From a virus, in IMG/VR virus record IMGVR_UViG_3300027974_000154, positions 1 through 24,320 of that record: a stretch of 24,320 nucleotides of DNA; one strand, written 5' to 3'. Position 1 is the first letter of the stretch. Every line of letters starts with the position of its first letter. The position numbers and the translations under genes were made by a program. The notes beneath the pieces are model-generated. The model saw only the letters and a list, made by a program, of their open reading frames with translations. It did no database searches and was not told the origin of the DNA. Below, one piece after another: positions 4,057 through 22,727 of the stretch.

Positions 4057-4262
4057 CCGAAGAAGAATTGAAGGCCCTGTTGTTGGTGGAGGGGTTTGAG
4101 CTACATGTATACCCAACAGCTACAGACCCGGACGCGTTGTGGATGGTTGATTTTAATGACATGCACGGTCGCCGCAAAATCCCGGCGAACTCCACAAACA
4201 ACACACGCGAAGAAGCCGTGCAGCAGGCGGTTGGTTACTACAAACTGGGCCCCCTACGATGA
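4053..4262 (+). CDS. Hypothetical protein, possible paralogue of the previous gene (69 aa)
   Basis: 69 residues from ATG 4053, in an ATGA overlap and preceded by GGAGAGGA (about 4040-4047). The order of elements (an acidic start, ELKALLLVEGFEL, a Trp-containing strand LWMVDF, then the helix EEAVQQAVGYYKLG) parallels the upstream gene. It ends in an ATGA overlap with the DNA polymerase gene, so its translation probably feeds ribosomes into the polymerase. No known family. Confidence 0.66.
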   Translation: MTEEELKALLLVEGFELHVYPTATDPDALWMVDFNDMHGRRKIPANSTNNTREEAVQQAVGYYKLGPLR

Positions 4263-6130
4263 AAAAAAGACAACTGGTGACGCTGGATTTTGAAACTTTT
4301 TACGACAAAGAGTATTCGCTGCGCAAGCTGACGATGGAGGACTATATTCGTCACGACTTGTTTGAAGTTATCGGGGTGTCGGTAAAAATCGATGATGGCC
4401 CAACACAATGGTTTTCAGGAGGCCACAATGCCACACAGACTTTTCTCGACCAATTTGATTGGTCTAATTCTATGCTTCTCGCCCACAATACCGCCTTTGA
4501 TGGGGCTATTCTTAACTGGCGGTTCGGCATCCGACCGTACGCTCTGGCTGACACTATGTCTATGGCTAATGCTGTCGGTGATGGTGCTGGGTCTGTTAGC
4601 TTGGCGGCGTTATCGGAGAAGTATCAGCTAGGCACCAAGGGCACTGAAGTACTGAATGCGTTGGGTAAACGTCGTTTGGATTTTACGCCGGACGAGTTGG
4701 CAGCGTACGGAGAGTATTGCAGCAACGACGTCGATCTGTGCTACCTGCTGTTCCAGCTTATGCTGGCGAGAGGGTTCCCCACCCAAGAACTAAAGCTGGT
4801 CGATTTGACTCTGCGGATGTTTACGGAGCCGGTGCTGGAACTGGACCTGTCACTGCTGGAGGGCCATCTGGAAGACCTGCGCATCAAGAAGCAGGAACTG
4901 CTGAATAACATCTCGTGCAGCAAAGAAGACTTGATGTCCAACCCCAAATTTGCGGAAGTTTTGCGTAGTATGGGTATCGACCCCCCGATGAAGATCAGCC
5001 CAGCTACGGGCCGGGAGACCTACGCCTTCGCTAAGACCGATGAGGCATTCAAGGCCCTGCCAGAGCAGTACCCCGAAGACACACCCATGCGGTTTGTTGT
5101 TGAGGCCCTTGTTGCTGCCCGGACGGGGTTGAAGTCGACACTGGAGGAGACCCGCACTGAACGCTTTATCGCCATAGCCAAGCGCGGCAAACTGTCGGTG
5201 CCAATTAAGTATAGCGGTACCAAGACCAAGCGTTGGTCGGGTGAGGGCGGAGGTATCAACATGCAAAACCTGCCCAAGAAGTCCCCCCTAAAGAAAGCCA
5301 TACGCGCCCCCAAGGATCACTATGTTATCGGTGCTGACCTGTCAAATATCGAACTGCGCGTGGGGTTGTGGTTTGGTGGTATGGCGAACAAGCTGAAACT
5401 GATCGCTGGCGGTGTCGATCTATACCGCGACTTCATTGCCCCCGTGTTCGATGTCCCCTACGCCCAAGTAAACCCAGACCAACGATTTATCGGCAAGACC
5501 TCACAACTCAGTCTGATCTACGGTGTTGGGGCCAAGAAACTCCGGCAGGCGATCATTACCGGCTCCATGATGTACCTCCAGAAGAAGATTGACATTGGCG
5601 ATGCCGAAGCGGACCGCATCGTGAAACTGTATCGCAACGAGTATCACGGTATTGTCGACGCGTGGTATGAAGGTGACCGGGTTCTGGAAGCCATACTGAA
5701 CGACCGATACATGGAATATGGCCCGGGGGGTGTGGTGCAAGTGCATGGCAGCAAAGGCATTCTCCTGCCATCTGGTCTGTATATGTCATACCCGGGGCTC
5801 CACAAAATGCAGGCGGACGGCAGGACACAATGGCGCTACAAGAGCCGTAAAGGATGGGAATACATCTATGGTGCAAAGGTCTTCCAACAAACCATTCAGG
5901 CCCTAGCCCGCTGCATTATGGGTGATGGTATGCTGCGTATCCGGAAAGTACTTCCCGAGTGCCCAATTGCGTTGACGGTGCATGACGCGGCCTACCCGAT
6001 AGCTCACAAAACGCGGGCGCAGGAGGTACTGGACACGGTGATCCGGCTGTTGTGTGTCCCACCGGACTGGGGCCGAGATATCCCGCTGGCTGCAGAGGGT
6101 GGGTTTGGTGAAACTTTGAAAGATTGCTGA
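4259..6130 (+). CDS. Family A DNA polymerase with 3'-5' exonuclease
   Basis: 623 residues: exonuclease plus polymerase domains, no 5'-nuclease domain, as in many phage replicases. Exo I is LDFETF (Asp10, Glu12), Exo II is HNTAFDG (Asn77, Asp81) and Exo III is YCSNDVDL (Tyr153, Asp157), so proofreading looks intact. Polymerase motif A is GADLSNIELRV (Asp360). Motif B is FIGKTSQLSLIYG (Lys413, Tyr421). Motif C is LTVHDAAYP (His575, Asp576). Both metal-binding carboxylates, Asp360 and Asp576, are present. Two departures from Escherichia coli Pol I stand out: Leu417 aligns with Phe762, and Ala577 replaces the Glu of HDE. It begins with an ATGA overlap and is the presumed phage replicase acting with the downstream helicase/primase. 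Confidence 0.96.
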   Translation: MKKRQLVTLDFETFYDKEYSLRKLTMEDYIRHDLFEVIGVSVKIDDGPTQWFSGGHNATQTFLDQFDWSNSMLLAHNTAFDGAILNWRFGIRPYALADTMSMANAVGDGAGSVSLAALSEKYQLGTKGTEVLNALGKRRLDFTPDELAAYGEYCSNDVDLCYLLFQLMLARGFPTQELKLVDLTLRMFTEPVLELDLSLLEGHLEDLRIKKQELLNNISCSKEDLMSNPKFAEVLRSMGIDPPMKISPATGRETYAFAKTDEAFKALPEQYPEDTPMRFVVEALVAARTGLKSTLEETRTERFIAIAKRGKLSVPIKYSGTKTKRWSGEGGGINMQNLPKKSPLKKAIRAPKDHYVIGADLSNIELRVGLWFGGMANKLKLIAGGVDLYRDFIAPVFDVPYAQVNPDQRFIGKTSQLSLIYGVGAKKLRQAIITGSMMYLQKKIDIGDAEADRIVKLYRNEYHGIVDAWYEGDRVLEAILNDRYMEYGPGGVVQVHGSKGILLPSGLYMSYPGLHKMQADGRTQWRYKSRKGWEYIYGAKVFQQTIQALARCIMGDGMLRIRKVLPECPIALTVHDAAYPIAHKTRAQEVLDTVIRLLCVPPDWGRDIPLAAEGGFGETLKDC

Positions 6131-6132
6131 AC

Positions 6133-6444
6133 ATGGATTATTCGGAATTGTGGCTACGCAGCAAAACGGCGTTACGGGCTATGGATGACGCCATCCTCAC
6201 GGGAGAGTATGATCGCGCTGAGAAGATCGCTGATGAACTTGTGGTTGAAATCAGACTCTTACGAAACGCTGTCATTCTTGAACGAGAGAGGAAATGCCCC
6301 GATGAGCATAAAATGGTCGTACAGCAGTCTGTCTCTGTTCCAGCAGTGCCCGAAGAAATACCACCGGTTGCGAGTGGTGAAGGACATCAAGGAGCCCCCG
6401 TCGGAGCAGATGCGGTACGGTTTGGACGCCCACAAAGCGGCTGA
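6133..6444 (+). CDS. Small helical hypothetical protein overlapping the nuclease gene
   Basis: An ORF from ATG 6133, three bases after the polymerase stop. The first about 55 residues (MDYSELWLRSKTALRAMDDA, later DRAEKIADELVVE and RLLRNAVILERER) look like genuine two-helix coding sequence. The last about 50 residues overlap the 5' part of the Cas4-like nuclease in another frame and are Pro/Gly/Val-rich and featureless, as expected where the frame is constrained by the other gene. The true product may therefore be mostly the N-terminal helices. The RBS is weak; coupling to the polymerase stop is likely. No family recognised. Confidence 0.5.
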   Translation: MDYSELWLRSKTALRAMDDAILTGEYDRAEKIADELVVEIRLLRNAVILERERKCPDEHKMVVQQSVSVPAVPEEIPPVASGEGHQGAPVGADAVRFGRPQSG

Positions 6445-6964
6445 AGAATATGTACGTGACGGCACTCCACTACCCGCTGGGTTTGCATTTTTACAACCGG
6501 TATTAGACAAACTGAAGGCCCTGCCGGGAGAGAAATTGTGCGAGTTCAAGCTGGGGTTGACTGAGGAGTTGGAGCCGTGTGACTTTTTTGCCGAGAACGT
6601 ATGGTGGCGCGGCATCGCAGACTTGTTGATTATCGATGGGGATACGGCCCGGGTGTTGGACTACAAAACGGGCAAAGACAAGTATGCGGACAAGAAGCAG
6701 TTGGAGTTGCTGTCGTTGGCGGTGTTCAAGCACTTCCCGCATGTGAAGAAGGTAAAGGCGGGTCTATTGTTTGTGATCCACACCAACTTCATCAAAGAAG
6801 ATTACCCACGCGAAAAAGAAGCAGCGATGTGGGCGAAGTGGTTGCCGGAGACAGATCGACTGGAGACGGCGTATGAGGATGATGTGTGGAACCCGAAGCC
6901 AAACTTTACTTGTCGGGCGTGGTGCCCGGTGATGGACTGCCCACATAACGGGAAAACGAGATAG
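6302..6964 (+). CDS. Cas4/AddB-like PD-(D/E)XK nuclease with putative Fe-S cysteines
   Basis: 220 residues from ATG 6302 (GAGAGGAAA about 9 nt upstream). The N-terminus WSYSSLSLFQQCPKKY is the typical start of RecB/Cas4-like nucleases. Nuclease residues are His44, Asp107 (GIADLL), Asp120 and Lys122 (VLDYKTGK), then Gln133 (KKQLELL). Cys16 at the N-terminus and Cys204, Cys208 and Cys213 at the C-terminus match the one-plus-three layout of the Fe-S cluster in AddB/Cas4 enzymes. Expected activity is metal-dependent single-strand or end-processing nuclease in recombination or host DNA degradation. It sits between polymerase and SNF2 helicase. An in-frame upstream start at 6185 is unlikely because the conserved N-terminus starts at 6302. 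Confidence 0.9.
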   Translation: MSIKWSYSSLSLFQQCPKKYHRLRVVKDIKEPPSEQMRYGLDAHKAAEEYVRDGTPLPAGFAFLQPVLDKLKALPGEKLCEFKLGLTEELEPCDFFAENVWWRGIADLLIIDGDTARVLDYKTGKDKYADKKQLELLSLAVFKHFPHVKKVKAGLLFVIHTNFIKEDYPREKEAAMWAKWLPETDRLETAYEDDVWNPKPNFTCRAWCPVMDCPHNGKTR

Positions 6965-7356: not shown

Positions 7357-8913
7357 GTGGAAATAGTCGGCAACAAGGCACTTCGTATCCGTGTCCGCAA
7401 CCCGAAGCGGATCACAAATGTCATCCCGAAAAGCGCGATGATCGACGACCACGAAGTGCTAGTGAAGTGGGGGCTGGACGAATGTCAGGTGTTGAAAAAC
7501 CTTGGCGTCAAGAACATCCCGTCACCAATCACCAAAGACTATAAATGGCCGGGGCTGTTTCAACCGTTTGACCACCAGCGCACTACCGCTGAATTCCTGA
7601 CACTCAACCGCCGTGGGTTTTGTTTCAACGAGCAAGGCACTGGTAAAACCGCCAGCGTGATCTGGGCGGCTGACTACCTCATGAACATCGGGAAAGTGCG
7701 CAGGGTGCTGGTGCTGTGCCCGCTGTCGATCATGGGCTCTGCGTGGCAGAATGATCTGTTCAGGTTTGCAATGCACAGAACCACAGCCATTGCCCACAAC
7801 CGTGACGGACGCAAGCGTAAGGAAGTTATCGACAGTGATGCTGAGTTTGTGATCATCAACTACGATGGGTTGGAGATTGTGTCCCCGGACGTGATCGCGG
7901 ACGGTCGGTTTGACCTCATTGTTGTTGATGAAGCCAACGCATACAAGAACCCGACTACCAAGCGTTGGAAGACCCTGAACAAGATCATCCGGCCCGATAC
8001 ATGGCTGTGGATGCTTACAGGAACCCCGGCGTCACAGGCCCCCACCGATGCGTATGGTCTGGCGAAGCTGGTCAACCCCGGGGGTGTACCGAAGTTTGCG
8101 GGGGCGTTCCGTGATCTGGTGATGAACAAGATTACGCAGTTCAAGTGGACTCCCAAGATGGACGCTGTGGAGACCGTGCACAGGGTGCTGCAGCCTGCGA
8201 TACGCTTTACAAAAGAGCAGTGTTTGGACTTGCCCGACATGATGTATGTGATGCGGGATGTGCCCCTGTCAAAGCAGCAGGAAAAGTATTATAAACAAAT
8301 GCGCACGGAGATGTTGACGGTGGCGGCGGGTGAAGAGATCAGCGCCGTGAATGCCGCAGCAAAGTTGACTAAATTACTACAGATATCATGTGGTGCGGTA
8401 TACGCCGACAGTAAAGAGATTGTGGACTTCGACTGCAAAGGCCGCATGGATGTTTTGAAAGAAATCATTGACGAGTCGAGTCATAAGGTTTTAATATTCG
8501 CTCCATACCGCCATAGCATCTACGCAATTGCAGCAGAACTAAAGCACTGCGGTTACACACTGGATGTGATCGACGGCGGTGTGCCCCCGAATAGACGCAC
8601 TGAAATATTCAACAAGTTTCAGACAACCGATGAACCACGCATTCTGGTGATTCAACCACAGGCAGCTTCGCATGGCGTTACGCTGCACGCAGCAAACACA
8701 GTTGTGTATTGGTCGCCAGTTATGTCCGTAGAAACGTATCTTCAAGCGAACGCCCGGGTGCATCGGGCGGGCCAGAAAAATAAAGTCACCATCATGCACC
8801 TGCAGGGAAGTCCTGTTGAACGCAAGCTGTATAAAATGTTGAGTGGCAAAGTGGACATCCACGAAAAATTAGTTGATCTATATAAAGAGGAATTAGGAGA
8901 AAGCAATGACTGA
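7357..8913 (+). CDS. SNF2-type superfamily 2 DNA helicase/translocase
   Basis: 518 residues starting at GTG 7357, with TTGGAGAG just upstream. Helicase motifs are Walker A NEQGTGKTA (91-99), DEAN in VVDEANAYKN (191-194) as motif II, MLTGTP (219-224) as motif III and ARVHRAGQ (466-473) as motif VI. The DEAN box and HRAGQ finger are typical of phage SNF2-like proteins. These ATPases move on duplex DNA and remodel DNA-protein complexes; in phages they accompany polymerase and recombination nucleases, possibly for fork restart or removal of host proteins. No nuclease or extra domain is fused. The gene lies between the HNH and a small helical gene that overlaps its end by 8 nt. Confidence 0.93.
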   Translation: MEIVGNKALRIRVRNPKRITNVIPKSAMIDDHEVLVKWGLDECQVLKNLGVKNIPSPITKDYKWPGLFQPFDHQRTTAEFLTLNRRGFCFNEQGTGKTASVIWAADYLMNIGKVRRVLVLCPLSIMGSAWQNDLFRFAMHRTTAIAHNRDGRKRKEVIDSDAEFVIINYDGLEIVSPDVIADGRFDLIVVDEANAYKNPTTKRWKTLNKIIRPDTWLWMLTGTPASQAPTDAYGLAKLVNPGGVPKFAGAFRDLVMNKITQFKWTPKMDAVETVHRVLQPAIRFTKEQCLDLPDMMYVMRDVPLSKQQEKYYKQMRTEMLTVAAGEEISAVNAAAKLTKLLQISCGAVYADSKEIVDFDCKGRMDVLKEIIDESSHKVLIFAPYRHSIYAIAAELKHCGYTLDVIDGGVPPNRRTEIFNKFQTTDEPRILVIQPQAASHGVTLHAANTVVYWSPVMSVETYLQANARVHRAGQKNKVTIMHLQGSPVERKLYKMLSGKVDIHEKLVDLYKEELGESND

Positions 8914-9328
8914 TGCAGTAACACAAGCACGGGAGCCTTCTGTCCCCGTGGACAAACTGATGAAGATTTTTATCAAAATTCGTGACTCAAGGGAGGCGCT
9001 ATCGCGTAAATACGAGGAAGATGATGGGTTGCTGAAAGACCAGCAGGAAGTGATCAAGACACAGATTCTGGAAGTATGTAAGGAGTTGAATCTGGATAGC
9101 CTCAAGACCACCGCAGGCACCGCTACCCGCTCGGTCAAAACACGCTACTGGTCTTCGGACTGGGGCGCGTTGCATGAGTTTGTCAAGGAGCATGACGCGA
9201 TGGACCTGATGGAACGGCGCGTGCACCAGACGAATATGAAGCAGTTTCTGGCGGAGAACCCTGATGTCCGTATCCCGGGCCTCAACTCTGACAGCTACTA
9301 CGACATTACTGTTCGACGCAGCAAATAA
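8906..9328 (+). CDS. Conserved phage protein with coiled-coil N-terminus
   Basis: 140 residues from ATG 8906, after TTAGGAGAAA and overlapping the helicase stop by 8 nt. The N-terminal half is a long charged helix (about 18-70, including DSREALSRKYEEDDG) and the C-terminal half has a conserved-looking block: SLKTTAGTATRSVKTRYW, SDWGALHEFV, then QTNMKQFLAENPD and a final YYDITVRRSK strand. I remember this block from many phages next to helicase or ssDNA-binding genes. The helix-plus-domain layout recalls Gam-like host-nuclease inhibitors, but I cannot confirm that. Likely a DNA-metabolism accessory factor; exact role unknown. Confidence 0.72.
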   Translation: MTDAVTQAREPSVPVDKLMKIFIKIRDSREALSRKYEEDDGLLKDQQEVIKTQILEVCKELNLDSLKTTAGTATRSVKTRYWSSDWGALHEFVKEHDAMDLMERRVHQTNMKQFLAENPDVRIPGLNSDSYYDITVRRSK

Positions 9329-10296: not shown

Positions 10297-10353
10297 ATGC
10301 AAGACCCCACGAATGAAGGCATAACCCAATGTCCACACGAAACGAGTTCCTGA
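10297..10353 (+). CDS. Possible 18-codon leader ORF overlapping the primase start
   Basis: ATG 10297 follows TTTGGAGG (about 10285-10292) at ideal spacing and encodes MQDPTNEGITQCPHETSS, then TGA. This is the strongest RBS in the intergenic region, yet the ORF is only 18 codons and its last 25 nt overlap the primase gene in a different frame. The primase ATG 10329 has its own weaker AAGG (10316-10319). It could be a leader that tunes primase translation, or a remnant. Coding status is uncertain. Confidence 0.35.
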   Translation: MQDPTNEGITQCPHETSS

Positions 10354-13172
10354 ATGCGGTGCTGCCGCCTGATGGTGTCTACGTTGCGGTGTCTATCGAC
10401 GACAATAAAAAAGTATCGCAGACATTTCACAATTCGGTCGCTGAACTTAATGAGCAACTGGAAACTATCACGCAGCAAAACAAGAACGCATTTTTCGCAA
10501 CAGCCGCATACAACATCGAGACCACACGCACCAATGACAATGTAAAACATATCCGCTCGTTCTTCATGGACCTTGACTGCGATCCGGAAGACGACACCAA
10601 ATTCCCCGACCAGAATACTGCTCTGGCGGAACTGAAAGCGTTTGTTCAAGACCTGCGCCTACCGAAACCCACTGTGGTTAACTCGGGACGCGGGATACAC
10701 GCATACTGGCCGTTGCTGGAGCCGGTGGACCGCGTGAAGTGGAAGCCCGTTGCGGAGAAGCTGAAGCAGACCTGCATGTTCAAGGGCTTCCGTATTGACC
10801 CGGCGGTCACCGCCGATGCTGCGCGTATTTTGAGGGCACCCGGCACCCGCAACCATAAAGACCCGTCCAACCCGCTTGATGTGGAAGTGATGCGGGTGGG
10901 GGAGCCGGTTGCGTTCGACGATATGCGCAAGTTGTTGGGCGTGTCGGAGTTTGATCTGTTACCGGCAACAAAGCGCCCGATGGACGAGGTATCCAAGAAG
11001 CTGTTGGCGAACCGTCCGTCTGTATTCAAGAACATCCTGCAGAAAAGCGCGGCGGGGGAAGGCTGCGCCCACATTCTATACGCGGTTACACATCAAGCGG
11101 ATATATCAGAACCCCATTGGCGGGCGGTGCTGTCGATTGCGGCCCACTGTGCGGACAAAGACAAGGCCATACACAAGGTCTCCAGTGCCCACCCGGACTA
11201 CAACCCCGCAGATACAGAGCGTAAGGCTGGGTCGATCCGTGGTCCATATACCTGCGCCACCTTCCAAAACATCGACGCCACGCTTTGCGAGGGGTGCCCG
11301 CACTTTGGTAAAATAGCATCACCAATAGCCTTGGGCGCTGGTCGCGTACTGGAAGCCACGAAGGAAGATAACGTGGTCGAAGTGCCCGCAGTCGGTGATG
11401 AACCTGCGGTGGTGTATGAGATTCCGGAGTATCCGTTCCCGTTTTTCAGGGGCAAGAACGGCGGGGTGTATGTCCGGGACAAGCGGGAAGACAAGAGCGG
11501 TAACACGGTCGAAGAAGACAAGCTGATCTACGAGTATGACTTCTATGCCGTGAACCTGATCGAAGACCCGTATCTGGGCATGACGGCTCTGTTCCGAGTG
11601 CATTTCCCACAGGATGGGGTCAAGGAGTTCTGCGTGCCAGTGAAGGACATGCTGGCTAAAGACCGCTATCGGGATGTGTTGGGGATGAAGGGTATTTGCC
11701 CGTCAAATAGTCAATTGGAGAACATAATGGCGTATTCGAACCATTGGGTTCGGCACCATCAGAAGTTGCGCAAGGCTAGTTTAGGGCGCGTCCAATTTGG
11801 GTGGGCCGACAGCAACTCCTGCTTTATTGTGGGGGATCGGGAAATCTCGTCCGCTGGCATCACCTACAGCCCACCCACGGCCAATACCGTAGACATCATC
11901 CCCAAGTTTCGCAAGGCCGGGACGCTCGACGCGTGGAAGCAAGTCACCAAGTTCTATGCCAGACCGGGGCAGGAACTGCCCCTGTTCGCGCTGTTTGCGG
12001 GCTTCGCTGCTCCCCTGATGCCATTCACCGGTACGCGTGGTGGTGTGATCAGCCTGTATTCGAATAAGGGCGGCACCGGCAAGACGACCACCCTGCAGGC
12101 CATCAACAGCATATTCGGACACCCAGATGAGGCGATGCTGATCAAGACCGACACCGTAAACTCCCGGGTCAACCGGGTAGGCACCATGAACAATATCGCG
12201 GCTACAACTGACGAGATCACCAACGAGACCCCAGAAGCCCTGTCAGAATACATCTACTCTATGCTGCATGGCCGTGGCAAGAACCGACTGATGGGTAGCC
12301 AGAACATAGAGCGCATCAACAAGACGACGTGGAACACGATCAGCATCGTTACCGGCAACTCAACCATTTCGGACAAGTTGTATACCATTAAATCACTACC
12401 GGACGGTGAGTTGCGTCGACTGATGGAGTTCCCGTTCCCCACACAGGTCAACATCTCCAAGGGTGAGTCGGACGCCATTTTCCGGCCCCTGCAGGACAAC
12501 TACGGCCACGCTGGAGAGGTGTATATACAATACATCCTGAACAACATGGGGCGGGTGGGCGACCTGCTGCTCAAGGTGCAGGGGAAAATCGACAAGGCTG
12601 CGGAACTCACCCAGCGAGAGCAATACTGGTCAGCGACTACAGCGGCGTGTATCTCGGGGGGTATTCTGGCGAAAGAGTCCGGGGCGCTGGACATCACCGA
12701 CGACGACATCAAGCGGGTGTATGACTGGATTATCAATCAACTGAAGGTCATGCGTGGGCATGTGGCGATTGCGAATATCGAACCGGATGAAGTGCTGGGT
12801 ATGTTTCTGTCCGAACACATCAACGATATGCTGATCATCAACGCCAGCGTGAAAGGCGGACTAAATGAGGGCCCGATCCGCGAGCCGAAAGGGAAGTTGT
12901 TGATCCGCTACGAGCCCGACACCAAAGACTTGATGATCAGTGTAGCGAAGTTTCGGGAATTTTGCACTAAGCGCCAGATGTCCTACAGCCACACCATCAA
13001 GGCACTACAGGCTGCGGGCGCACTGCATGGTGAGACGCGGAAGCGGTTGGGTAAGGGCACCCACATTTCGGTCAATGAACGGGTGTTGGTGTTTCGGAAC
13101 GTAAACGAGAAATTTGTTTTGGGAGAGGTCGATGTGGACGCATGGTTTGCGAGTCAGGATAAACTGGCATGA
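10329..13172 (+). CDS. AEP-type primase fused to DUF927-like helicase
   Basis: 947 residues. The N-terminal third is an archaeo-eukaryotic-type primase domain: FFMDLDCD supplies the DxD metal pair Asp81/Asp83, SGRGIHAYW (119-127) is the sxH nucleotide motif with His124, and ADAARILRAPGTRNHK (162-177) is the matching basic motif. A helical linker and a cysteine/His knuckle (Cys309, Cys320, Cys323, His325) follow. The C-terminal half is a P-loop ATPase resembling DUF927 helicases: Walker A SNKGGTGKT (578-586), Walker B with Asp628/Glu629 (ATTDEI), and a sensor IVTGN (673-677). It should synthesise primers and unwind DNA in one polypeptide for the family A polymerase. Start 10329 leaves the primase domain intact. 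Confidence 0.88.
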   Translation: MSTRNEFLNAVLPPDGVYVAVSIDDNKKVSQTFHNSVAELNEQLETITQQNKNAFFATAAYNIETTRTNDNVKHIRSFFMDLDCDPEDDTKFPDQNTALAELKAFVQDLRLPKPTVVNSGRGIHAYWPLLEPVDRVKWKPVAEKLKQTCMFKGFRIDPAVTADAARILRAPGTRNHKDPSNPLDVEVMRVGEPVAFDDMRKLLGVSEFDLLPATKRPMDEVSKKLLANRPSVFKNILQKSAAGEGCAHILYAVTHQADISEPHWRAVLSIAAHCADKDKAIHKVSSAHPDYNPADTERKAGSIRGPYTCATFQNIDATLCEGCPHFGKIASPIALGAGRVLEATKEDNVVEVPAVGDEPAVVYEIPEYPFPFFRGKNGGVYVRDKREDKSGNTVEEDKLIYEYDFYAVNLIEDPYLGMTALFRVHFPQDGVKEFCVPVKDMLAKDRYRDVLGMKGICPSNSQLENIMAYSNHWVRHHQKLRKASLGRVQFGWADSNSCFIVGDREISSAGITYSPPTANTVDIIPKFRKAGTLDAWKQVTKFYARPGQELPLFALFAGFAAPLMPFTGTRGGVISLYSNKGGTGKTTTLQAINSIFGHPDEAMLIKTDTVNSRVNRVGTMNNIAATTDEITNETPEALSEYIYSMLHGRGKNRLMGSQNIERINKTTWNTISIVTGNSTISDKLYTIKSLPDGELRRLMEFPFPTQVNISKGESDAIFRPLQDNYGHAGEVYIQYILNNMGRVGDLLLKVQGKIDKAAELTQREQYWSATTAACISGGILAKESGALDITDDDIKRVYDWIINQLKVMRGHVAIANIEPDEVLGMFLSEHINDMLIINASVKGGLNEGPIREPKGKLLIRYEPDTKDLMISVAKFREFCTKRQMSYSHTIKALQAAGALHGETRKRLGKGTHISVNERVLVFRNVNEKFVLGEVDVDAWFASQDKLA

Positions 13173-13762: not shown

Positions 13763-16700
13763 TTACTCTTCCCCTTCAGCAGCCTTACGCACCCGCTCTT
13801 TGAGTTTCGGGTCGATCTGTACCCCATAGATAGCCTGCTGCTCCCTGCGATCACGTCCTTTGACTGAAGCAATGATGTCCTTGGGTTTGATCGCCACCTC
13901 GGGGAACGCCATATTGAACGCTGCAATGCGCTCCTGCACACCCATCAGGGCATCCACATCCCCAGCATCCGCTGCGGTCTCATACTGATCAAACAGGCGG
14001 CGTTTACGGTCACGCACGAACGTCTCCATCTCCTTCATGTAACCGCGTTTCTCGTAAATCTCAGTCAGCTTGGTCGGCGCAAACCCACCCAACTGGAACA
14101 TTGCGTTCATGATATTGATGTCGTCCGTGATTGGATCACCCTTCAAAGTCGTGGCACCCTCCACCCCAAACCGCATGGCCTTCAAACCGTTACGCAGTGC
14201 GGCGGGAGCACCGGCTTCAATCCCACGATACCAATACCCGTCGTCGATCATCTGCGCAGCCCGGTTCATGTTGGTCAGGATGCTGAACGGTGCCCCCAAG
14301 AATATCTGCTCGATGTAGTAGCGCAGTGCCCCAAGTTCGGCTTTACTGCGGGAGTCGTCCCGGATCAGCAGGTCACCAAAACCCGTACGTTGTGCGACCT
14401 CAAGACCGGTTAGGTAGTTGGTCGGGCCCTTGAACGTGAACTCACCCAGCGCGTTGCGCATGGTGTTGCGGAAGTCCGGATACTCATCGTCATCCCCGAA
14501 CGCCGACTGAAACACGTTGTAGAGGAACTCCCCCACCCCCACGAACGGCAGGCCCTGTGCACCGGCAAACGCAAACGTCATGGCATACGTCCCCAGCAAC
14601 TGCTTCCGGGCGATGTTCTTGGCTAACTCCCGTTCTTGCGGTGACAGACTGCTATCCCCTTTGATCGCTACATACGCCATACGCGCAGTACGGAACATCA
14701 TCAGTTGAGCGAAGCGTTTGAAGATCAACACAACACGACCCAGTGGGTGCTGGAATATCGGCCCCGCAGTCTCCATCATGCCGCTGCCGTGGGACTTGGT
14801 GATCATGTCGACGGCTTCATTCACGGCTTCGGTCTCAGACAAACCTTTTTGTTTTGCCAGCGTGTAGGCGGCGATTGCGGTGATCTCACGGTTTGCCATC
14901 TCTGAATGCTGGTAGGCGAACGTCATGGCGATACTGGCGGCGCGTTTGACCTTGCTGTCCGGAGACGACGGCTGTGACCGCATGTCCAGAATCTCCTGCG
15001 AGATCGAGATGTTGATCTGACCACGGCGCTGCAGTTCGTCATACAGGCCACGCAACGGGCTGTCTTTTGGCAGGGTGTTCAGAGGTGACAGGTAACCAAA
15101 TTTCTTGAAGTTGTCCCCGGCGTTTTTATATACTGATTTGCCATACGCCTTGTATGCACCCATCAGGGCCGCAGTCGCTTTACCCGCGCCATACTTACTT
15201 GCCATCATGGGGTAGGCGATCATCGGGGTCTGCGTCAAGTTGATCAGAGCGGTGGATACGTTGGCCCCGAGGAAGTACGAGAACGTCAGCCAGTTGATGT
15301 TCGACGCCAGCTTGTTGATCGTCGGATTCAGCATTGTGGTGAGGCGCGACCCCGGCTCCGCCGAAATTTGTGTGGCTACTTCGTCGGCTAGTGGGTCAAA
15401 CCCACGCGGGTCTTTGCTGGATATGTCCGCCAACTCATTACGGCCCAGCGCAGCGGTCTCTTCAATCCGACGGTTATACAGACGTGATGCCGTCTGTGAA
15501 ATGAGCTTCGGGGCGGTAGCAGTGTAGCTACGCAGCACGTCTTTCTCAAAACCAGCACGACCTTCCCGCTTGATCATATTCATGATTGCCGACTGCTGCG
15601 GATTCAACCGAAGCAGGGCTTTATATACATCGTTCACCACATCATCAGCCACACCGTTGTCGCGCATAGCCCGCAGAGTACGTTGGATCATGGGGTCAGA
15701 CGGCGGGGTGCGGCCAGCGATAACCTCATCCAGATTCTTGTATTGCTTGAAATCCTTGCTGTTACGGTCGATCTTGTTCTCAGCGATAAACCGATTGCGC
15801 TGCTCCGGGGTTTCAAACGCCATAACAATCTGCTCACCGTTCTTCTCAAACCGCATCCAGTAATCGCCAAACCGCATCAGCGGGAAGTAGGGCTTGATCT
15901 TGCTCTCGATACCTGCCTTGATCTCATCGATCTCATTCTTGGGCAGCACGGCCAAGTCTTTCTCCAGCGCGGCGATGTAGTCCTTGTACAGCTTCTCGTA
16001 GTGCTCCTTGATCTCGGTGTAGGACTTCTTCAGGTCATCCGGCAGCGCCTTATAACGCGCCAACAGGTCCGGGCCTTGTTTGGCGGCGGGGTTACCACTG
16101 TTCTTCGGGTCGGCGGGATCAAACCGGGCCAACGTAGCGTCGTACACCACTTCGGTGAACTTGTCGTATTCTTTTTTGAGCGCCGTCGTCTGGCTGTATT
16201 TGTTCACCACTCGCTGCAATGACTTGGCGGTCTGACCTGCGCGGTCGATCTGGGTGTTCTCATAACCCCGGCGTTCGTTGAGTAGGTCTACAACCCCCCG
16301 CAGTGCAGGTGCCCGGTTGCCATAAATCTCCACCAGATGATTCAGGTCCAACGTCTTCACCGCAGCACCCAGCACGCCACGGCTCATCTTGCCAACGACG
16401 TCGCTCCATGCTCCGGAAAACTTAGGTAGGTTTGTGGAACTATCACCCATCGTGTTGAGCATGTTTCTGTAGGCGGCGGAAGCACCCGATACATCAGCAT
16501 TGAGAAACAGAATGTCCCCGGGCGTTTTGGGGATCGTCTTACCAGCACGGATAATCTTGCCAATAATCTCGTCGATACGGTCCAACGCGGTGTTCGAACT
16601 GCGCGGCGACATACCAAAGAACTTACGCACAGCGTTCACAAACCAGTCATACGCGGTCTTCAACGCACCTTGCGGAATGCGAATGCTGCGCAGCATCTGT

Positions 16701-19700
16701 TGGAACTCAGAGTTGGACTGGGCTTCTGCGGCGAACTCCTGCAAGCTGGTCGCGCCATACTGCCCCTCTATACGCGGACGTATCCGGGTGAACAACTCAT
16801 TCAGTTGACGAGTCAGCGGGTGCATCCGGCTACGCAGAACATGGGAGATCGCGGCATGGGTAGTTTCATGCAGGATGGTGTGTTCGTGCAGTGAGTCCGG
16901 GCTGATCGTGATGGTGTCGGTGGTTGGGTCGTACTGGCCTGCGCCTTCCACCATGCCTACCTTGATTCGTGTGTTGCCGATACGAGCGAGCAGCCGCTGT
17001 GCCACCTGTTTCAACAACGGATTGTTGGTGGACTGAATAATGCCCCGCAGCGTCTTCCGCAGATCACCCGCCTGAACTGCCGCAGCTACATCATCCTGCA
17101 CTTTCACACCGACGGGTTTAGACGGCAGTAGCAGATCATCTTCCGCGTTCTCGTCATCTACTTGCTGCTGTACAGCGCGAGCGTTTTTCCGGTTGGCTTC
17201 ATAGCGTTCTTGGATCGCAGCGGATGCAGCGAGTTTCTGTTTGGCGGCGTCGATATCCTGTTGGGGGACTTCATTGCGCTCCAGAATGCTTCGGGCAGTC
17301 GACACCACGGCCTTGTTCTGATCCCGCATACTGTCCACCAGATACAGGACCGCACTGTTGTATTTGGAGGTCACTTTGGTGGTCTGGATCAACCGTTCGG
17401 CTTCCTGCAGTTCGAAAAGTTCTTCCGCGAAGTTCGTGCGCTCACCGCGCTTGGGTTTCTGTGACGGCGGGGTTAGTGGAGAAGACTGTTGCGTCGTTGC
17501 TCCATCACTTCGTCCAGCATCTCTTTGATCGCCATCCACGTCGGCAGGTCGAGTAACGTCAGCGGCCCCTCCTCCGGTGGTTCGTCCTTGTACAGGCACA
17601 GCCATGCCTGCGCTATCAGCTTCTCGTCCAGCATTGGGTGTCCCTTCAAAGTCAAATGCTCCTTGTACCCGTGGCATTGATTTACGTGGACGGCCACGGA
17701 GCACGGGTTCTGCGGCAGGTTCTTGGGTGGGCTCAGGTTGCACGGCGGGCGCTTGCGTCCCACGACGGCGTTTTTCACGGCCCTGCTGAATAGCCAGAGT
17801 CAGTCCCGGTGTCTTGCGTTCCTGCGCCTGCGCTACCTCCAGTTCGGCGGTCGTCTGCGGTTGTTGCTGCTTGAGCAGGTATTCTTGGCGCGGGGTCAGC
17901 GGCATCCCGGCATCCCGACGTTGCTTGGCGAACTCCAGTTCCTGAACGTCCGTATTTTGGGCGGCGGGCGTCTCACCCAGCACCTGTCCTTGGGTCATGC
18001 GGCCCTTGGTGGCGATCTGTTGCTCACGCGCTTTGTCAATCAGGTTCGACGCTACTTCAGGGTTGAACTTTACGCGACCGCTAATGTCACCCAGCACCCC
18101 TTCAAACTTGTTGAGATCATCGGCTCTGGTCAGGTCGAGCCCACGCAAGGTGTCTCTGGCTTTCTTCGAAGTGCGACTGAACCCAAGACCTGTCAATACG
18201 TCGTCGGTGATCTGCATCCCGACCGGTGTAGGTACTTCGGGAGCAGCGGGATATTGCAGCGGCTCTGGGGTGGGCGCGGGGCGTTCTTGTAGTTGCGGTT
18301 GTACCTCAGCCATCTGCTTCATGGACTGGCGACGGGTCGGCTCTTTCTCTGGATTCGTCGGGTTGATTTGTTTATTGAGTGTATTTATCTGCGCACGAGT
18401 GCTGGCTATGGCGCTCTTGATCTGCTCCTGCTGCTCAATGAACTTTACTTTTTCGCCCGGGGTCTTAGCACGTTGGACTTCCCGATCCAGAATATCCAAT
18501 ACCCGGCGTTGCTCCTCCAACTGGGTTTGCAGGGCCGTAATTTCTTCCGTTGGGTCTTGGTTGAACCTTTCAGCGGTTAGCTTGTCACCACCGGGTGTAT
18601 ATGCAAACAGATCAGGTACGGCGTCCGGTGGCGGGGCCTGTTCACGATCCATCATCTCCTGTTGCGCAGTATTGGGTACGGGCTTACCTTCCGGTCCCAT
18701 ACCGGTGAATACTTCTGACCGGGGGGCGTTCTCCGCCTCCGCCAACAACTGCTTGCGCTGCGTATCTTCTATAGCCGCCCGACGACCCAGTTCCTCTTGC
18801 GCATTACCACGACCTGCACGGGCCGCGCCCACTTGACCCACTGCACCCAACGGACCACCCAGCATCAAGGCACCAGCAGCGGCTTCAGCGTATTCTTTGG
18901 CGGCTTCAGGGTCGTCATAGGGGTTCGTCGCCAGACCCGCCTGCCAACGCTCCAGCACTTGCTGCGACACCTCCTGCGGGATTTCAAAGGCGATACCCTT
19001 CATCACCCCCTTGGCGATCTCCTGCTTATATTTGACCGGGTTGGCAGCGGCGAGCGCGAGTTCTTTCACGGTCTGGTCGGCAACGGCCTTACCCTCAATA
19101 CCCAGCAGCTTACCCAATCCCAAAAACTTGCCGCCCAATAGGTCGAGCGCGGCCTGACCACCACCCGCTACCGTAGCAGGGAGTCGATCTACCGGCTTAC
19201 CTTTATTCTCTTCGACTTGGCGACCGAGGTTGCTGGCGATGTACTGCCCCAGCAAAGTCAACCCATACGCACCCGTGCCGATCAACGCAGCCGGGGCACC
19301 TGCAACCGCAGCGGCACCTGCACCCAACAGACCGGCGGCAGCGGCTGGGGCTTGGAAACCAATCGATTCACCCGACAGTTCACGGAACTTATCCCACGTA
19401 GCGCCTAACGCCCCGCCGATATCCCCAGCCTTCGCACGGGCTCCGATGTCACTGAACTGCGTGCGGCGATAGGCGTCCTGTGCCTCTTTCTGAACTTGCT
19501 GCATCTGCTGCGCAGCTTGCTCATCTCCCGGGTTTACCATGAGTTTGGCAGCGGGGGCCAAGGACTTGAGTGTCGACGACGCACCGGTACCCAGCGCTTT
19601 AAAGAAACCCGGCTCTTCCGGGATAGGGTCGAACTTCGGCTCGGCGGCGTATTTCTGGTATCGGCGGATAAGTTCCGATTGTGTAATATCGTCCGGCACC

Positions 19701-19738
19701 CCGGAGATGACGGTACCATCTGGCATTCTTACATCCAT
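13763..19738 (-). CDS. Giant polyvalent virion protein with HETTH metallopeptidase motif and LPD38-like C-terminus
   Basis: 1,991 residues from ATG 19738 (CTAGGAG just upstream). The N-terminus MPDGTVISGVPDDITQSEL is a segment common on phage internal/ejected proteins. A small-residue hydrophobic stretch (about 127-170) follows, then long Gln/Glu/Arg coiled-coil and Pro-rich linkers. HETTH (957-961; LHETTHAAISHV) with downstream Glu in EFAAEAQSN (about 1001-1005) is a gluzincin-like zinc peptidase site. The C-terminal region around NREITAIAAYTLAKQKG (about 1616) resembles LPD38 of large polyvalent proteins. Such proteins are packaged and enter the host with DNA, where the peptidase could cut host or virion proteins. 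No lysozyme or transglycosylase motif seen. An out-of-frame ORF is nested at residues about 702-755. Confidence 0.88.
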   Translation of the reverse strand: MDVRMPDGTVISGVPDDITQSELIRRYQKYAAEPKFDPIPEEPGFFKALGTGASSTLKSLAPAAKLMVNPGDEQAAQQMQQVQKEAQDAYRRTQFSDIGARAKAGDIGGALGATWDKFRELSGESIGFQAPAAAAGLLGAGAAAVAGAPAALIGTGAYGLTLLGQYIASNLGRQVEENKGKPVDRLPATVAGGGQAALDLLGGKFLGLGKLLGIEGKAVADQTVKELALAAANPVKYKQEIAKGVMKGIAFEIPQEVSQQVLERWQAGLATNPYDDPEAAKEYAEAAAGALMLGGPLGAVGQVGAARAGRGNAQEELGRRAAIEDTQRKQLLAEAENAPRSEVFTGMGPEGKPVPNTAQQEMMDREQAPPPDAVPDLFAYTPGGDKLTAERFNQDPTEEITALQTQLEEQRRVLDILDREVQRAKTPGEKVKFIEQQEQIKSAIASTRAQINTLNKQINPTNPEKEPTRRQSMKQMAEVQPQLQERPAPTPEPLQYPAAPEVPTPVGMQITDDVLTGLGFSRTSKKARDTLRGLDLTRADDLNKFEGVLGDISGRVKFNPEVASNLIDKAREQQIATKGRMTQGQVLGETPAAQNTDVQELEFAKQRRDAGMPLTPRQEYLLKQQQPQTTAELEVAQAQERKTPGLTLAIQQGREKRRRGTQAPAVQPEPTQEPAAEPVLRGRPRKSMPRVQGAFDFEGTPNAGREADSAGMAVPVQGRTTGGGAADVTRPADVDGDQRDAGRSDGATTQQSSPLTPPSQKPKRGERTNFAEELFELQEAERLIQTTKVTSKYNSAVLYLVDSMRDQNKAVVSTARSILERNEVPQQDIDAAKQKLAASAAIQERYEANRKNARAVQQQVDDENAEDDLLLPSKPVGVKVQDDVAAAVQAGDLRKTLRGIIQSTNNPLLKQVAQRLLARIGNTRIKVGMVEGAGQYDPTTDTITISPDSLHEHTILHETTHAAISHVLRSRMHPLTRQLNELFTRIRPRIEGQYGATSLQEFAAEAQSNSEFQQMLRSIRIPQGALKTAYDWFVNAVRKFFGMSPRSSNTALDRIDEIIGKIIRAGKTIPKTPGDILFLNADVSGASAAYRNMLNTMGDSSTNLPKFSGAWSDVVGKMSRGVLGAAVKTLDLNHLVEIYGNRAPALRGVVDLLNERRGYENTQIDRAGQTAKSLQRVVNKYSQTTALKKEYDKFTEVVYDATLARFDPADPKNSGNPAAKQGPDLLARYKALPDDLKKSYTEIKEHYEKLYKDYIAALEKDLAVLPKNEIDEIKAGIESKIKPYFPLMRFGDYWMRFEKNGEQIVMAFETPEQRNRFIAENKIDRNSKDFKQYKNLDEVIAGRTPPSDPMIQRTLRAMRDNGVADDVVNDVYKALLRLNPQQSAIMNMIKREGRAGFEKDVLRSYTATAPKLISQTASRLYNRRIEETAALGRNELADISSKDPRGFDPLADEVATQISAEPGSRLTTMLNPTINKLASNINWLTFSYFLGANVSTALINLTQTPMIAYPMMASKYGAGKATAALMGAYKAYGKSVYKNAGDNFKKFGYLSPLNTLPKDSPLRGLYDELQRRGQINISISQEILDMRSQPSSPDSKVKRAASIAMTFAYQHSEMANREITAIAAYTLAKQKGLSETEAVNEAVDMITKSHGSGMMETAGPIFQHPLGRVVLIFKRFAQLMMFRTARMAYVAIKGDSSLSPQERELAKNIARKQLLGTYAMTFAFAGAQGLPFVGVGEFLYNVFQSAFGDDDEYPDFRNTMRNALGEFTFKGPTNYLTGLEVAQRTGFGDLLIRDDSRSKAELGALRYYIEQIFLGAPFSILTNMNRAAQMIDDGYWYRGIEAGAPAALRNGLKAMRFGVEGATTLKGDPITDDINIMNAMFQLGGFAPTKLTEIYEKRGYMKEMETFVRDRKRRLFDQYETAADAGDVDALMGVQERIAAFNMAFPEVAIKPKDIIASVKGRDRREQQAIYGVQIDPKLKERVRKAAEGEE
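17473..17634 (-). CDS. Candidate overlapping gene nested in the polyvalent protein (53 aa)
   Basis: ATG 17634 to TAA 17473, one frame off the polyvalent gene and on the same strand. The peptide begins MLDEKLIAQAWLCLYKDEPP, has an LDLPTWMAIKEMLDE helix and ends in a polar, partly basic tail (QRRNSLLH). This is protein-like, with aromatic and aliphatic residues, where the host frame is Gly/Asp/Arg/Thr-rich linker. GAAGGG sits 8 nt upstream of the ATG. By hand count 42 of 53 codons end in G or C (79%), against 17 of 55 (31%) in the overlapped host frame; the gene's first 66 codons give about 64%. So codon bias follows the nested frame here. Two helices are likely; function unknown. Confidence 0.6.
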   Translation of the reverse strand: MLDEKLIAQAWLCLYKDEPPEEGPLTLLDLPTWMAIKEMLDEVMEQRRNSLLH

Positions 19739-19746
19739 CAGAACTC

Positions 19747-22122
19747 CTAGTTGGGTAGATCAGCGAAATTTACCACGTCTGTTTTCCCGCCGGTGTCACC
19801 CGAAGGTACCGCACCCGCCATTGCTTTGGCGGTTTCTGACTGGATCAGTTTACCGATATTATCCAACTGTACCTGTTCTTCAGGTTTGATTTTACCAGCA
19901 GCGGCCTTTTGTTGCAGCGCCGTATACATTGGGTACCGATCACGTACTTTGTCTTGGATCGCAGCCAGAACCCGGGCGCGTTTGGTATCAGCATCCTGCT
20001 GGCGCACGTAGTTCAGTGAATCGCGTTGGGTTCTATTACCTTCTGCCACGGCAGCGGTGCGACGATCTTCAGCGCCGATCTTAGCCACGGTCTCAAAGCG
20101 CTTCTCACCCAGTTCAGCAACCTTGAGTTCAGTGGTAGCGATGGCTTTGTTGTAGGCGTCACGGGCGGTACGAACACGATCCCCCGCAGCGATAGCGTCC
20201 TTCTCAATACCCATGCGCTCTGCACGATCCAGACGTTTCTCTGCCAGCACCAGCTTATTGCGCTCACGTTCCGCGTTGCGGAAATCTTTATTGATTGAGC
20301 CCAGTTCCTTCGTCGTGAGGCCGAGACCTTCCGCAAAGTTCTTCAGCATGTATGGAGAAGTGCCCGCAGCCGCCGCGAACCCACCCATAGCCACGGCCAG
20401 CCAGCGGTCTTTATCACGATCTTGCACGGCGGTCTTGGCTTCTTCTTTGAACATGTCGAGCCGCTCTTTGATATCGTCCGGGATTTCTTTGCGCAATGCG
20501 TCCCTACGGGCAGTGGTTGCGTCTTCGGCGGTACCCAGATTATCTCGCTCAGTTTGCAGGGACTTGGTGATGCTGGACAGATCGGGGCCTTTGGCACTTA
20601 GTTGGGGTGCTCTTACTGTGCTAGCAGCTTGTGCTGTGGGTGCGGGTTGTGGGGTTGGCGCGATTTGCGGCGTCGTTGGCTTGGCATAAACAGTCGGTTC
20701 CGGTTCGTTGGCTGAGAATGCCGCGATGCCGCCCGGAGCTACCGGCGCTTGTTGTGCTTGCGCACGTTGTTCTGCGATGGCCTGTAGACGTTTAGCGCGT
20801 TCCTCTTCCGCTGGCGTGGCGTAAGTGCGAGGACGGTTGTATGCGTCCTTAAAGAACTTGGCAATACCACCCAACATACCTACACCACCACCATCATCAA
20901 ACGCGACGATCCCACCACCTGCGTAGTCGGCGCTTTCCATAACACCAGTGTCCATACCGGCGATACCACCCAGCACAGTACCTTGGGGCTCACCGGCTTG
21001 CAGGGCTTGGTAGTTCTGGCTGCTCTGGCGCATCTGTTGCACCTTCTGCGTAGCCATCATTTTCTCAAGCGGTGTGGCATTGGCCTGCGAGATAACCTGC
21101 TGCGGGTTCGGGCTGGACAGCGCCACTTTGATCAGCTTTGACACATTCGATGCCAGACCACCCTCACTACCGACTTCACCGCCGATAGCAAACTTCTTGA
21201 CCGCGCCACCCTCTTTAAATGCTTTTGACAGACCCAGTGCACCGAGACCTAAACCGCCGATTTGAGACGCGATGTTTGGCTGCTGCTGGTAGGAGTACAT
21301 GGTCTGATTGGGGGACACTACAGAGCCGCGCAAGAGGGAACTCAGGTTCTGCAATTGCGTCCACGGATATTGCTGCTGGCGCATGAACTCTTCGTACTTC
21401 TGATCGATACCTTGTTGCGCCTGCGCTTGTTGAATACCGCCAGCCTGCTGCTGCGCTTGATTGATACCCATCTGTTGGTTGTATGAACTCTGACCCAGTT
21501 GGCCCAACGTGCCAGCAGCTTGACCTGCCGTCTGGAGACCCTGAAGCCCCGCCGTGGTACCGAACTGCAACGACTTCTGTGCTTGGTCAAATGCGTTCTG
21601 AGTGCCGGTTGCTTGGATACCCGCCAGTTGGTTCTGCAGGTTACGGTTGGCTTCCGATTCTACGAGCGCATGGCGAGTGCCACCAAACGCACCGGCCTTT
21701 GACGCACCAGCGCCAATACTCGGGAGCCCACGGTTGTAGTCCTGAACCGCTTGGTTTTTCTGCCAGTCGACCACGTTCTGCATATACGGCGACATGTATG
21801 ACTGCATGGCTTGCGGTGAGGTGGCTTGTTGCATGTAGTTGTTGCCAGCATTGAGCCCGCCGATGCCAGCCATACCCGCCATACCAGCACCCTGCCCCAT
21901 TAGGGGTGACACGCCCATGTTACCAACATTTTCAAATGCCTGATTCTGCAAGCCGGTAAAATCCGCAACGCGCTGACCGGTGTAGGGTTGGTACGAAGTT
22001 TGAGACGCGGCTTGACCGCGATTCATTATGTCTTCGAAATATGGCCGAGCGTATTCAGGAATGTTTGAGGTCGTTTGCTGTACAGTGCTAGGCTGTTGTG
22101 GTGCGCTTGATCCCTTACCCAT
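19747..22122 (-). CDS. Gln-rich and coiled-coil virion protein
   Basis: 791 residues from ATG 22122 (MGKGSSAPQQ), chosen over ATG 22152 because GAAGAGGTG lies just upstream and it abuts, rather than overlaps by 28 nt, the HNH stop. Residues about 15-60 carry IPEYARPYFEDIMNRG and PYTGQRVADFTGLQ, seen at the start of tail or internal proteins of several phages (from memory). Residues about 60-300 are Gln/Gly/Ala-rich, followed by Gly motifs (FAIGGEVG, YAGGGIVAFDDGG), a Pro/Ala linker (about 480-510) and a charged coiled coil to the end. Likely a structural or ejected protein between the HNH and the polyvalent protein; its stop overlaps the latter's RBS. No enzymatic motif seen. Confidence 0.78.
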   Translation of the reverse strand: MGKGSSAPQQPSTVQQTTSNIPEYARPYFEDIMNRGQAASQTSYQPYTGQRVADFTGLQNQAFENVGNMGVSPLMGQGAGMAGMAGIGGLNAGNNYMQQATSPQAMQSYMSPYMQNVVDWQKNQAVQDYNRGLPSIGAGASKAGAFGGTRHALVESEANRNLQNQLAGIQATGTQNAFDQAQKSLQFGTTAGLQGLQTAGQAAGTLGQLGQSSYNQQMGINQAQQQAGGIQQAQAQQGIDQKYEEFMRQQQYPWTQLQNLSSLLRGSVVSPNQTMYSYQQQPNIASQIGGLGLGALGLSKAFKEGGAVKKFAIGGEVGSEGGLASNVSKLIKVALSSPNPQQVISQANATPLEKMMATQKVQQMRQSSQNYQALQAGEPQGTVLGGIAGMDTGVMESADYAGGGIVAFDDGGGVGMLGGIAKFFKDAYNRPRTYATPAEEERAKRLQAIAEQRAQAQQAPVAPGGIAAFSANEPEPTVYAKPTTPQIAPTPQPAPTAQAASTVRAPQLSAKGPDLSSITKSLQTERDNLGTAEDATTARRDALRKEIPDDIKERLDMFKEEAKTAVQDRDKDRWLAVAMGGFAAAAGTSPYMLKNFAEGLGLTTKELGSINKDFRNAERERNKLVLAEKRLDRAERMGIEKDAIAAGDRVRTARDAYNKAIATTELKVAELGEKRFETVAKIGAEDRRTAAVAEGNRTQRDSLNYVRQQDADTKRARVLAAIQDKVRDRYPMYTALQQKAAAGKIKPEEQVQLDNIGKLIQSETAKAMAGAVPSGDTGGKTDVVNFADLPN

Positions 22123-22124
22123 AG

Positions 22125-22727
22125 TTACACCTCTTCCGGCATATCGGGCCATGCCCGGTTTAATTTGCGAATATTCTCAGAACCTACGAGTAACTGCATA
22201 TTAGCATGAACATGCAACCCACACACGAGAGGGCTGGTGATCGGCACTACGTGGTCCACATGCCATAACACCCCCGTGGCTCTGGATAATTCGCGGGCTT
22301 TTTTATACAGCAGCCGAATACCTGTTATATCTGCCCACTTTGGGGTTGCCTGTTTTTTGTTCACCTGATAACGCCGACATTTTTCTGCCCCCTGCACTTT
22401 CATTTGTTCGCTTGTGGCATACCGCTCACGTTCATATGCGTTATGGCTTGCTAGGTTAGCGCTGCGCCATTTTTTGCACGCGGCCTTGTGTTTGCCCATA
22501 TTCGCATTGCGCCACGCATATATTTTTTCTCGGGACGTGATTTTATTCTCTTTGTACCGTTGGTTAGTTTGTGCACGGATATGGACTCGATTGGCTTTGT
22601 ACCGCGCAGCCGTATATGCACTAGCGCACTCGCGGCATTTATTTGTGCGGCCATTTGCGGACCTTGAGTGTTTTTGGAACATCTCAAGCGTTTTCTCCAC
22701 CCCGCAATATTTGCACGTCTTAATCAC
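22125..22727 (-). CDS. HNH endonuclease, likely homing/inserted gene
   Basis: 200 residues starting at GTG 22727 (GTGA overlap with the upstream gene; AGAAGGAA upstream). An N-terminal zinc ribbon is formed by Cys5, Cys8, Cys31 and Cys34. A long basic helical region (Tyr/Arg/Lys/Asn-rich) follows, and the C-terminal HNH core is WHVDHVVPI (His156, Asp158, His159), GLHVHANMQ (His172, Asn176) and SENIRKLNRAW (Asn185). This is the usual architecture of free-standing phage homing-type HNH enzymes that cut DNA at or near the locus they occupy. It sits inside the late gene row, exactly fitted between two virion-type genes, and looks more AT-rich than them. Its last codons (PEEV) supply the RBS of the next gene. 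Confidence 0.9.
   Translation of the reverse strand: MIKTCKYCGVEKTLEMFQKHSRSANGRTNKCRECASAYTAARYKANRVHIRAQTNQRYKENKITSREKIYAWRNANMGKHKAACKKWRSANLASHNAYERERYATSEQMKVQGAEKCRRYQVNKKQATPKWADITGIRLLYKKARELSRATGVLWHVDHVVPITSPLVCGLHVHANMQLLVGSENIRKLNRAWPDMPEEV

Follow-up and report, generated by a model that had tools for sequence, protein, structure and literature searches.

Metagenomic studies guess whether an unknown virus is lytic or temperate from a single residue of its DNA polymerase, position 762 in Klenow numbering. What does a leucine at this position tell us about the phage that carries it? The question is raised by a stretch of viral DNA of 24,320 nucleotides (IMG/VR record IMGVR_UViG_3300027974_000154; hereafter the window), which encodes a family A DNA polymerase (PolA) of 623 residues (4259–6130, + strand) with a 3′–5′ exonuclease and a polymerase domain. 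A sequence-only reading of the window had put Leu417 of this enzyme at position 762, and had connected it with a distinct, possibly temperate or slow-replicating class of phages. A link between Leu762 and a distinct, putatively temperate class is indeed in print (PMC6302109 and PMC9069017, in the parts of these sources available).

The placement of Leu417 held. Residues 409–422 of the polymerase, which form motif B (the O helix; 5483–5524, + strand), read RFIGKTSQLSLIYG, with Lys413 at 5495–5497, Leu417 at 5507–5509 (codon CTC) and Tyr421 at 5519–5521; the 5504–5524 span encodes QLSLIYG. Motif B aligned without a gap with Klenow RRSAKAINFGLIYG in phmmer, and with E. coli PolA and T7 gp5 in MAFFT. 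Lys413 and Tyr421 are thus the equivalents of Klenow Lys758 and Tyr766, as proposed, and Leu417 is the equivalent of Phe762; neither alignment brought an aromatic residue to this position. Fold comparison gave no residue-level mapping, so the register depends on the gapless motif.

The enzyme shows the sequence features and predicted fold of a family A polymerase. It matched the Pfam families DNA_pol_A (1.3e-17; 64.3 bits against a cut-off of 34.3) and DNA_pol_A_exo1 (9.5e-6), as well as phrog_17 (5.7e-67), and no 5′ nuclease domain was found among the Pfam matches of the 623-residue protein. The exonuclease motif DFET lies at 4286–4297. Motif A (D360LSNIE365LR, 5336–5359) retains the equivalents of Asp705 and Glu710, and the alignment showed that those of Arg754, Lys758, Tyr766 and Asp882 are also kept (R409, K413 and Y421 in the O helix, D576 in motif C). 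In contrast, motif C (5981–5989) reads His575-Asp576-Ala577, that is, HDA instead of HDE, with Ala577 (5987–5989) at Klenow Glu883; this Glu is common in family A polymerases but not defining. Lys345 (5291–5293) is the equivalent of Klenow Arg690, at the same distance ahead of the Asp of motif A (15 residues) as in E. coli. All of these motifs are on the + strand. In an AlphaFold2 model (mean pLDDT 93.6), residues 406–419 form a helix, and the best PDB matches of the model were the Pol I folds of Klenow, Bst and Taq. E. coli Klenow and T7 gp5 share with the window enzyme the fold and the six kept residues, but differ at 762, which is Phe in E. coli and Tyr in T7, and both have Arg690 and Glu883. 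Among the matches listed, relatives aligned over nearly the full length of the polymerase at 45–54% identity.

Leu417 is not a chance variant, since it was conserved without exception in two alignments (14 and 45 relatives) and across larger sets of loci. All 81 loci of an earlier set had leucine at 762 (three of these being copies of the window's own polymerase), as did all 179 loci that reach the position in a set of 183 relatives, which includes near-copies and some contigs met twice. Named records with Leu762 are Rollin, RHph_TM3_14A, KPP25, phiA008, LWP01, MW202496, YeP5, Delta and BO1, together with the chi-like phages Suzuki and SAP012, Kagunavirus XY1, MJing1 and CN2, and CRPAP1904, whose polymerase motif reads RHVGKTSILGLGYG.

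The PolA tree that the sequence-only reading had called for was built with FastTree from 133 rows. Three copies of the window polymerase (L001, L002, L081), a locus with a stop in its reading (L180), two with inserts (L186, L188) and one with an odd alignment (L193) were left out of the tree and covariation rows, and the remainder was dereplicated by k-mers. The two inserts, of about 450 and 150 residues, lie inside motif B (L186:1227–4454 and L188:9977–12280); they begin at a Cys after K758-T759 and end in His-Asn before a Cys. We take these termini to be intein-like; Pfam found no intein domain in either insert. The window fell, with support of 100, in a single clade of 89 rows that all have Leu762, and which contains KPP25, the chi-like, Kagunavirus and Delta phages and the LWP01-like records. 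A second Leu762 group (CN2 and eight viral contigs) sits inside the Phe762 phages and a third consists of PSA28 and K298, such that Leu762 requires three changes on this tree. This agrees with the discussion in PMC13228545, in the part available, of two leucine clades that are monophyletic and nearly fully conserved. The window enzyme belongs to the Leu762 PolA class, and Leu762, fixed and inherited throughout a deep clade of phage PolAs, tracks ancestry.

What of lifestyle? All 24,320 bases of the window recur, at 100% identity, at positions 4749–29068 of a longer contig, IMGVR_UViG_3300009152_000004 (69,057 bases). The absence of an integrase, noted earlier for the window, extends to this whole contig, where neither the tyrosine (PF00589) nor the serine (PF00239) recombinase family had a match, other integration routes being possible. 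A search for CI-like repressors with the HTH_3 family gave no match at E ≤ 0.001 in the contig, and ribonucleotide reductase (RNR; PF02867) was absent both from it and from all 29 records of the window's lineage. PHROG scans of 20 of the 65 open reading frames outside the window turned up no lysogeny gene; they gave genes for terminase, portal, major head protein, tail fibre and nuclease, and seven of the 20 frames matched nothing. As the ends of the contig are unproven (it is 'linear' in IMG/VR) and 20 of 65 outside frames were scanned, a hidden lysogeny system could be overlooked. A GIY-YIG-type homing endonuclease gene (L083:1918–2574) lies upstream of the window in the same contig. Across the 29 lineage records (25–70 kb, 11 of them at least 58 kb), no recombinase exceeded the cut-off, one record having a 13.9-bit match below it; HTH_3 gave short matches in 11, two of them over the cut-off. 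The window phage is most likely lytic, judging from its gene content; lytic growth is inferred here because the records include no cultured member of the window's own lineage.

The polymerase is encoded within a replication module, all on the + strand. This comprises a Hjc-like nuclease (754–1053; Pfam Hjc 5.1e-7, phrog_93 endonuclease 9.5e-21), a PD-(D/E)XK exonuclease of the RecB/Cas4 type (6185–6964; PDDEXK_1 2.6e-15, phrog_69 1.9e-22), a SNF2-type helicase, a usual neighbour of Leu762 PolA (7357–8913; SNF2-rel_dom 8.4e-26, phrog_62 5.1e-106), and a 947-residue fusion of an AEP primase with a DUF927 helicase (10329–13172; DUF927 1.6e-20). No RecB-like or UvrD-like helicase, another neighbour expected for the Leu762 class, was seen among the frames scanned. 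The 947-residue protein matched the solved structures of SaPIBov1 Rep (8tch, 7.9e-28) and SCCmec Cch (5dgk, 1.9e-24) by profile, and its model, which is of moderate confidence (pLDDT 84, pTM 0.44), matched 5dgk (4.6e-18), 8tch (2.8e-16) and the PrimPol 6zp9 (1.5e-7) in Foldseek. Both Cch and Rep correspond to the DUF927 half, which in the window is fused behind the AEP domain and is found in a phage. The protein is of the Cch/Rep type by its DUF927 match over the cut-off and its match to these structures; the NCBIfam Cch1 model gave only 28.8 bits against a cut-off of 700. Residues D81, D83, G120, G122 and H124 are invariant, and presumably represent the AEP primase motifs. DUF927 was found in 28 of the 29 lineage records, the exception being a contig of 31.6 kb, and in Rollin and RHph_TM3_14A, while other Leu762 records had VapE-like matches.

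Cch has been counted among hexamer-forming helicases (PMC7581432, in the part available), and by analogy the 947-residue protein may be a ring-type helicase. Leu762 phages have been argued to possess non-ring helicases, in keeping with a temperate life (available part of PMC6302109); given the AEP primase–DUF927 helicase, this argument from a slow, non-ring helicase is weak for the window phage. Three further genes were observed in the window. A small gene inside the module (8906–9325) is labelled 'minor head protein' by PHROG, which looks doubtful, and KPP25 has the same label near its polymerase. Further along, a 1991-residue protein with LPD39 and DarB-like matches (13763–19738, – strand) adjoins a gene for a DNA ejection-like protein (19747–22152).

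It is improbable that Leu762 marks the window phage as temperate or slow-replicating, its polymerase trading speed for an accuracy that suits lysogeny. The published association cited above favours this idea, as do the SNF2 helicase and the missing RNR, both of which have been described for Leu762 groups, and a recombinase was indeed present in 14 of the 21 LWP01-like sister records examined (from 80 such loci). Nevertheless, no record of the window's own lineage has a recombinase over the cut-off, 28 of 29 have a helicase of the Cch/Rep family, and CN2 and Delta combine Leu762 with an RNR. Moreover, each residue at 762 is found both in records that have a recombinase and in records that lack one: of the named records whose genome was searched (a survey that left out K298, PSA28, Me-ZS1 and CRPAP1904), a recombinase was present in 4 of 14 with Leu762, 2 of 7 with Phe762 (Turbido and phiC31) and 1 of 3 with Tyr762 (HTVC201P; one of these three is an IMG/VR contig). 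HTVC201P (MH598802.1) has a tyrosine integrase as well as a Tyr762 polymerase, contrary to the rule that Tyr762 phages are virulent. Leu762 phages described as lytic also exist. In the available parts of the literature, CRPAP1904 is described as lytic with a latency of 40 min and a burst of 109, B. elkanii phages are described as lytic by authors who leave lysogeny open, and a 2025 paper already records Leu762 in virulent phages. The 'putative integrase' of RHph_TM3_14A (L088:22616–25699, 1027 residues) matched only DUF927 in Pfam (E ≤ 0.01); it is probably misannotated and is no evidence for lysogeny. Temperate members probably do exist on more distant Leu762 branches, since of the 23 loci found in bacterial assemblies, one of the more distant kin, in Motiliproteus coralliicola (L191), has a tyrosine integrase 12.8 kb away from polA, on a contig of 1.5 Mb. 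Two further relatives lie in a chromosome (L180) and a 304-kb contig (L188) from metagenome-assembled genomes, the distance to the nearest integrase being about 0.3 Mb and about 49 kb, respectively. The Leu762 class is one already described, and as a predictor of lifestyle the residue fails for it, being clade-fixed and found in recombinase carriers as well as in phages described as lytic.

The palm of the window polymerase shows a second pattern. Position 883 is Ala or Ser in most of the relatives (161 of the 178 that are readable there), as it is in some Phe762 phages, among them T5-like ones. Within the window's clade and its close kin, all 31 rows with Ala or Ser at 883 had Lys690, and all 13 with Glu883 had Arg690. 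The 690/883 pairs over the 133 rows were R/E 95, K/A 26, K/S 9 and R/A 3. An added scan of the PSA28/K298 group, in which 6 of 39 new loci (<500 residues) were left out, split cleanly at these positions and raised the total to 166 rows (R/E 112, K/A 26, K/S 25, R/A 3, K/E 0); 195 undereplicated rows gave K/S 88, K/A 74, R/E 27 and R/C 1, with five having a gap. Misalignment at 690 is unlikely for most rows, since its spacing to motif A is a constant 15 residues in 148 of the 166, the window among them. Searches of an open-access library gave no report of the Lys690/Ala883 pair.

Do these two residues act together? On a tree built without both sites, 690 and 883 each require five changes, and the normalised mutual information of 690 with 883 was 0.78, compared to 0.15 for the next of 484 columns, a measure that ignores ancestry. 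One explanation is that the covariation reflects only the shared ancestry of a few clades, with no physical or functional coupling, and this we regard as a real possibility, if somewhat the less likely one. There are only four to five independent contrasts, and four well-supported ones gave on average 3.6 in the same direction, 0 opposite and 0.4 with no difference (median p 0.125), too few for a sign test to reach 0.05. Exceptions also occur, with Arg690/Ala883 in Margaret, RHph_Y1_11 and L463, and Arg690/Cys883 in L193. The T5-like OSYSP (Lys690/Ser883) groups with Margaret and RHph (support 87), so in its line the two changes may have come at different times, with Glu883 perhaps lost before Lys690 arose. 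Against shared ancestry as the whole explanation, Lys690/Glu883 occurs in none of the 166 rows, no independent contrast runs in the opposite direction, and two loci nested beside the window's group (L011 and L141) have both Arg690 and Glu883. These patterns suggest that residues 690 and 883 may act together. A different explanation, that Lys690/Ala883 (and Leu762) reflect relaxed selection on a PolA that is vestigial or used in repair while another polymerase copies the genome, is highly improbable. The motif C Glu is missing, as this would predict, and the AEP domain of the 947-residue protein could itself polymerise DNA. However, the equivalents of Asp705, Glu710, Arg754, Lys758, Tyr766 and Asp882 are all kept, the exonuclease motif is present, the relatives described above match over nearly the full length, and OSYSP, whose PolA is remote in sequence and has Phe762, carries Lys690/Ser883. 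Furthermore, five of eight purified native Leu762 PolAs extended primers (PMC9069017, in the part available), their state at 883 not being known here. The palm of phage family A polymerases may have two alternative states, Arg690/Glu883 as in Pol I or Lys690/Ala-Ser883, swapped in several lineages (the window's clade and T5-like, c9N-like and K298-like phages) under both Leu762 and Phe762. We give even chances to this idea of a switchable module by the catalytic Asp882, which may control how metal or nucleotide is bound, independently of 762.

Position 762 itself shows no tie to 690 like that of 883; across the 762 contrasts (three starred), 690 differed in the same direction in 1.2 and not at all in 1.8. 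Whether Leu762 has a compensatory partner is an open question in PMC13228545 (in the part available). With the two PSA28/K298 rows set aside, 762 was the only column that separated the Leu lineages of 89 and of 9 rows alike from the Phe/Tyr rows, the next-best score being 0.40 at position 738. Position 845 was a candidate: it is Asn in 33 of 33 Phe/Tyr rows, while the 89 rows of the large Leu clade have Glu (77), Gln (10) or Asn (2). However, Asn is retained in 9 of 9 rows of the CN2 Leu lineage, so the change is not required. Loss of Glu883 was likewise rejected as a companion, as the Phe762 phages Margaret, OSYSP, RHph_Y1_11 and c9N also lack this Glu. Leucine is not neutral in every background, since a T7 phage with Y526L is unable to complete its cycle (PMC13228545, in the part available).

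The closest known systems are the Leu I and Leu II clades of viral PolA (Nasko 2018; Keown 2022), which have in common with the window Leu762, a SNF2 helicase beside polA, no RNR, and 3′–5′ exonuclease and polymerase domains. The window, which is placed by our own tree only, differs in its Lys690/Ala883 palm and in its AEP primase–DUF927 helicase, of which the available parts of the published descriptions make no mention. Its cultured kin include the Kochitakasuvirus KPP25 and CRPAP1904, whose Leu762 PolAs share 29% identity over 98% of the query and have a putative helicase and a RecB-like nuclease nearby, as in the window. However, they have Arg690/Glu883 and a weak, sub-cut-off VapE match instead of DUF927, whereas Rollin (33%) and RHph_TM3_14A (31%) are closer and do have DUF927. 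Further literature was drawn on in part (PMC12656738, PMC13340246, PMC5862659, PMC11122685).

Our preferred reading, which we consider very likely, is that the window polymerase belongs to a deep Leu762 clade and replicates the genome of a tailed phage, at least about 69 kb in length. It would copy the phage genome with its O helix working as in Pol I, Arg409, Lys413 and Tyr421 being kept, and Leu417 would pack where Phe or Tyr contacts the incoming sugar, over a palm in which Lys690/Ala883 would replace Arg690/Glu883. Leu762 would be an inherited state of the clade rather than a tuning for lysogeny. Lytic growth is most likely, given a full module (AEP primase–DUF927 helicase, SNF2 helicase, nucleases and PolA) in a contig in which no integrase-family recombinase or HTH_3 match was found.

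For the window and its relatives, then, residue 762 follows ancestry: a single Leu762 clade contains both carriers of a recombinase and phages that have been described as lytic. The DUF927 helicase of the window's lineage is easily missed, and undercuts the view of Leu762 phages as lacking ring-type helicases. The coupled state of 690 and 883 might be the part that a polymerase specialist would not expect: the change from Arg690/Glu883 to Lys690/Ala-Ser883 is a double substitution made by nature next to the metal site, which polymerase biochemists could test.
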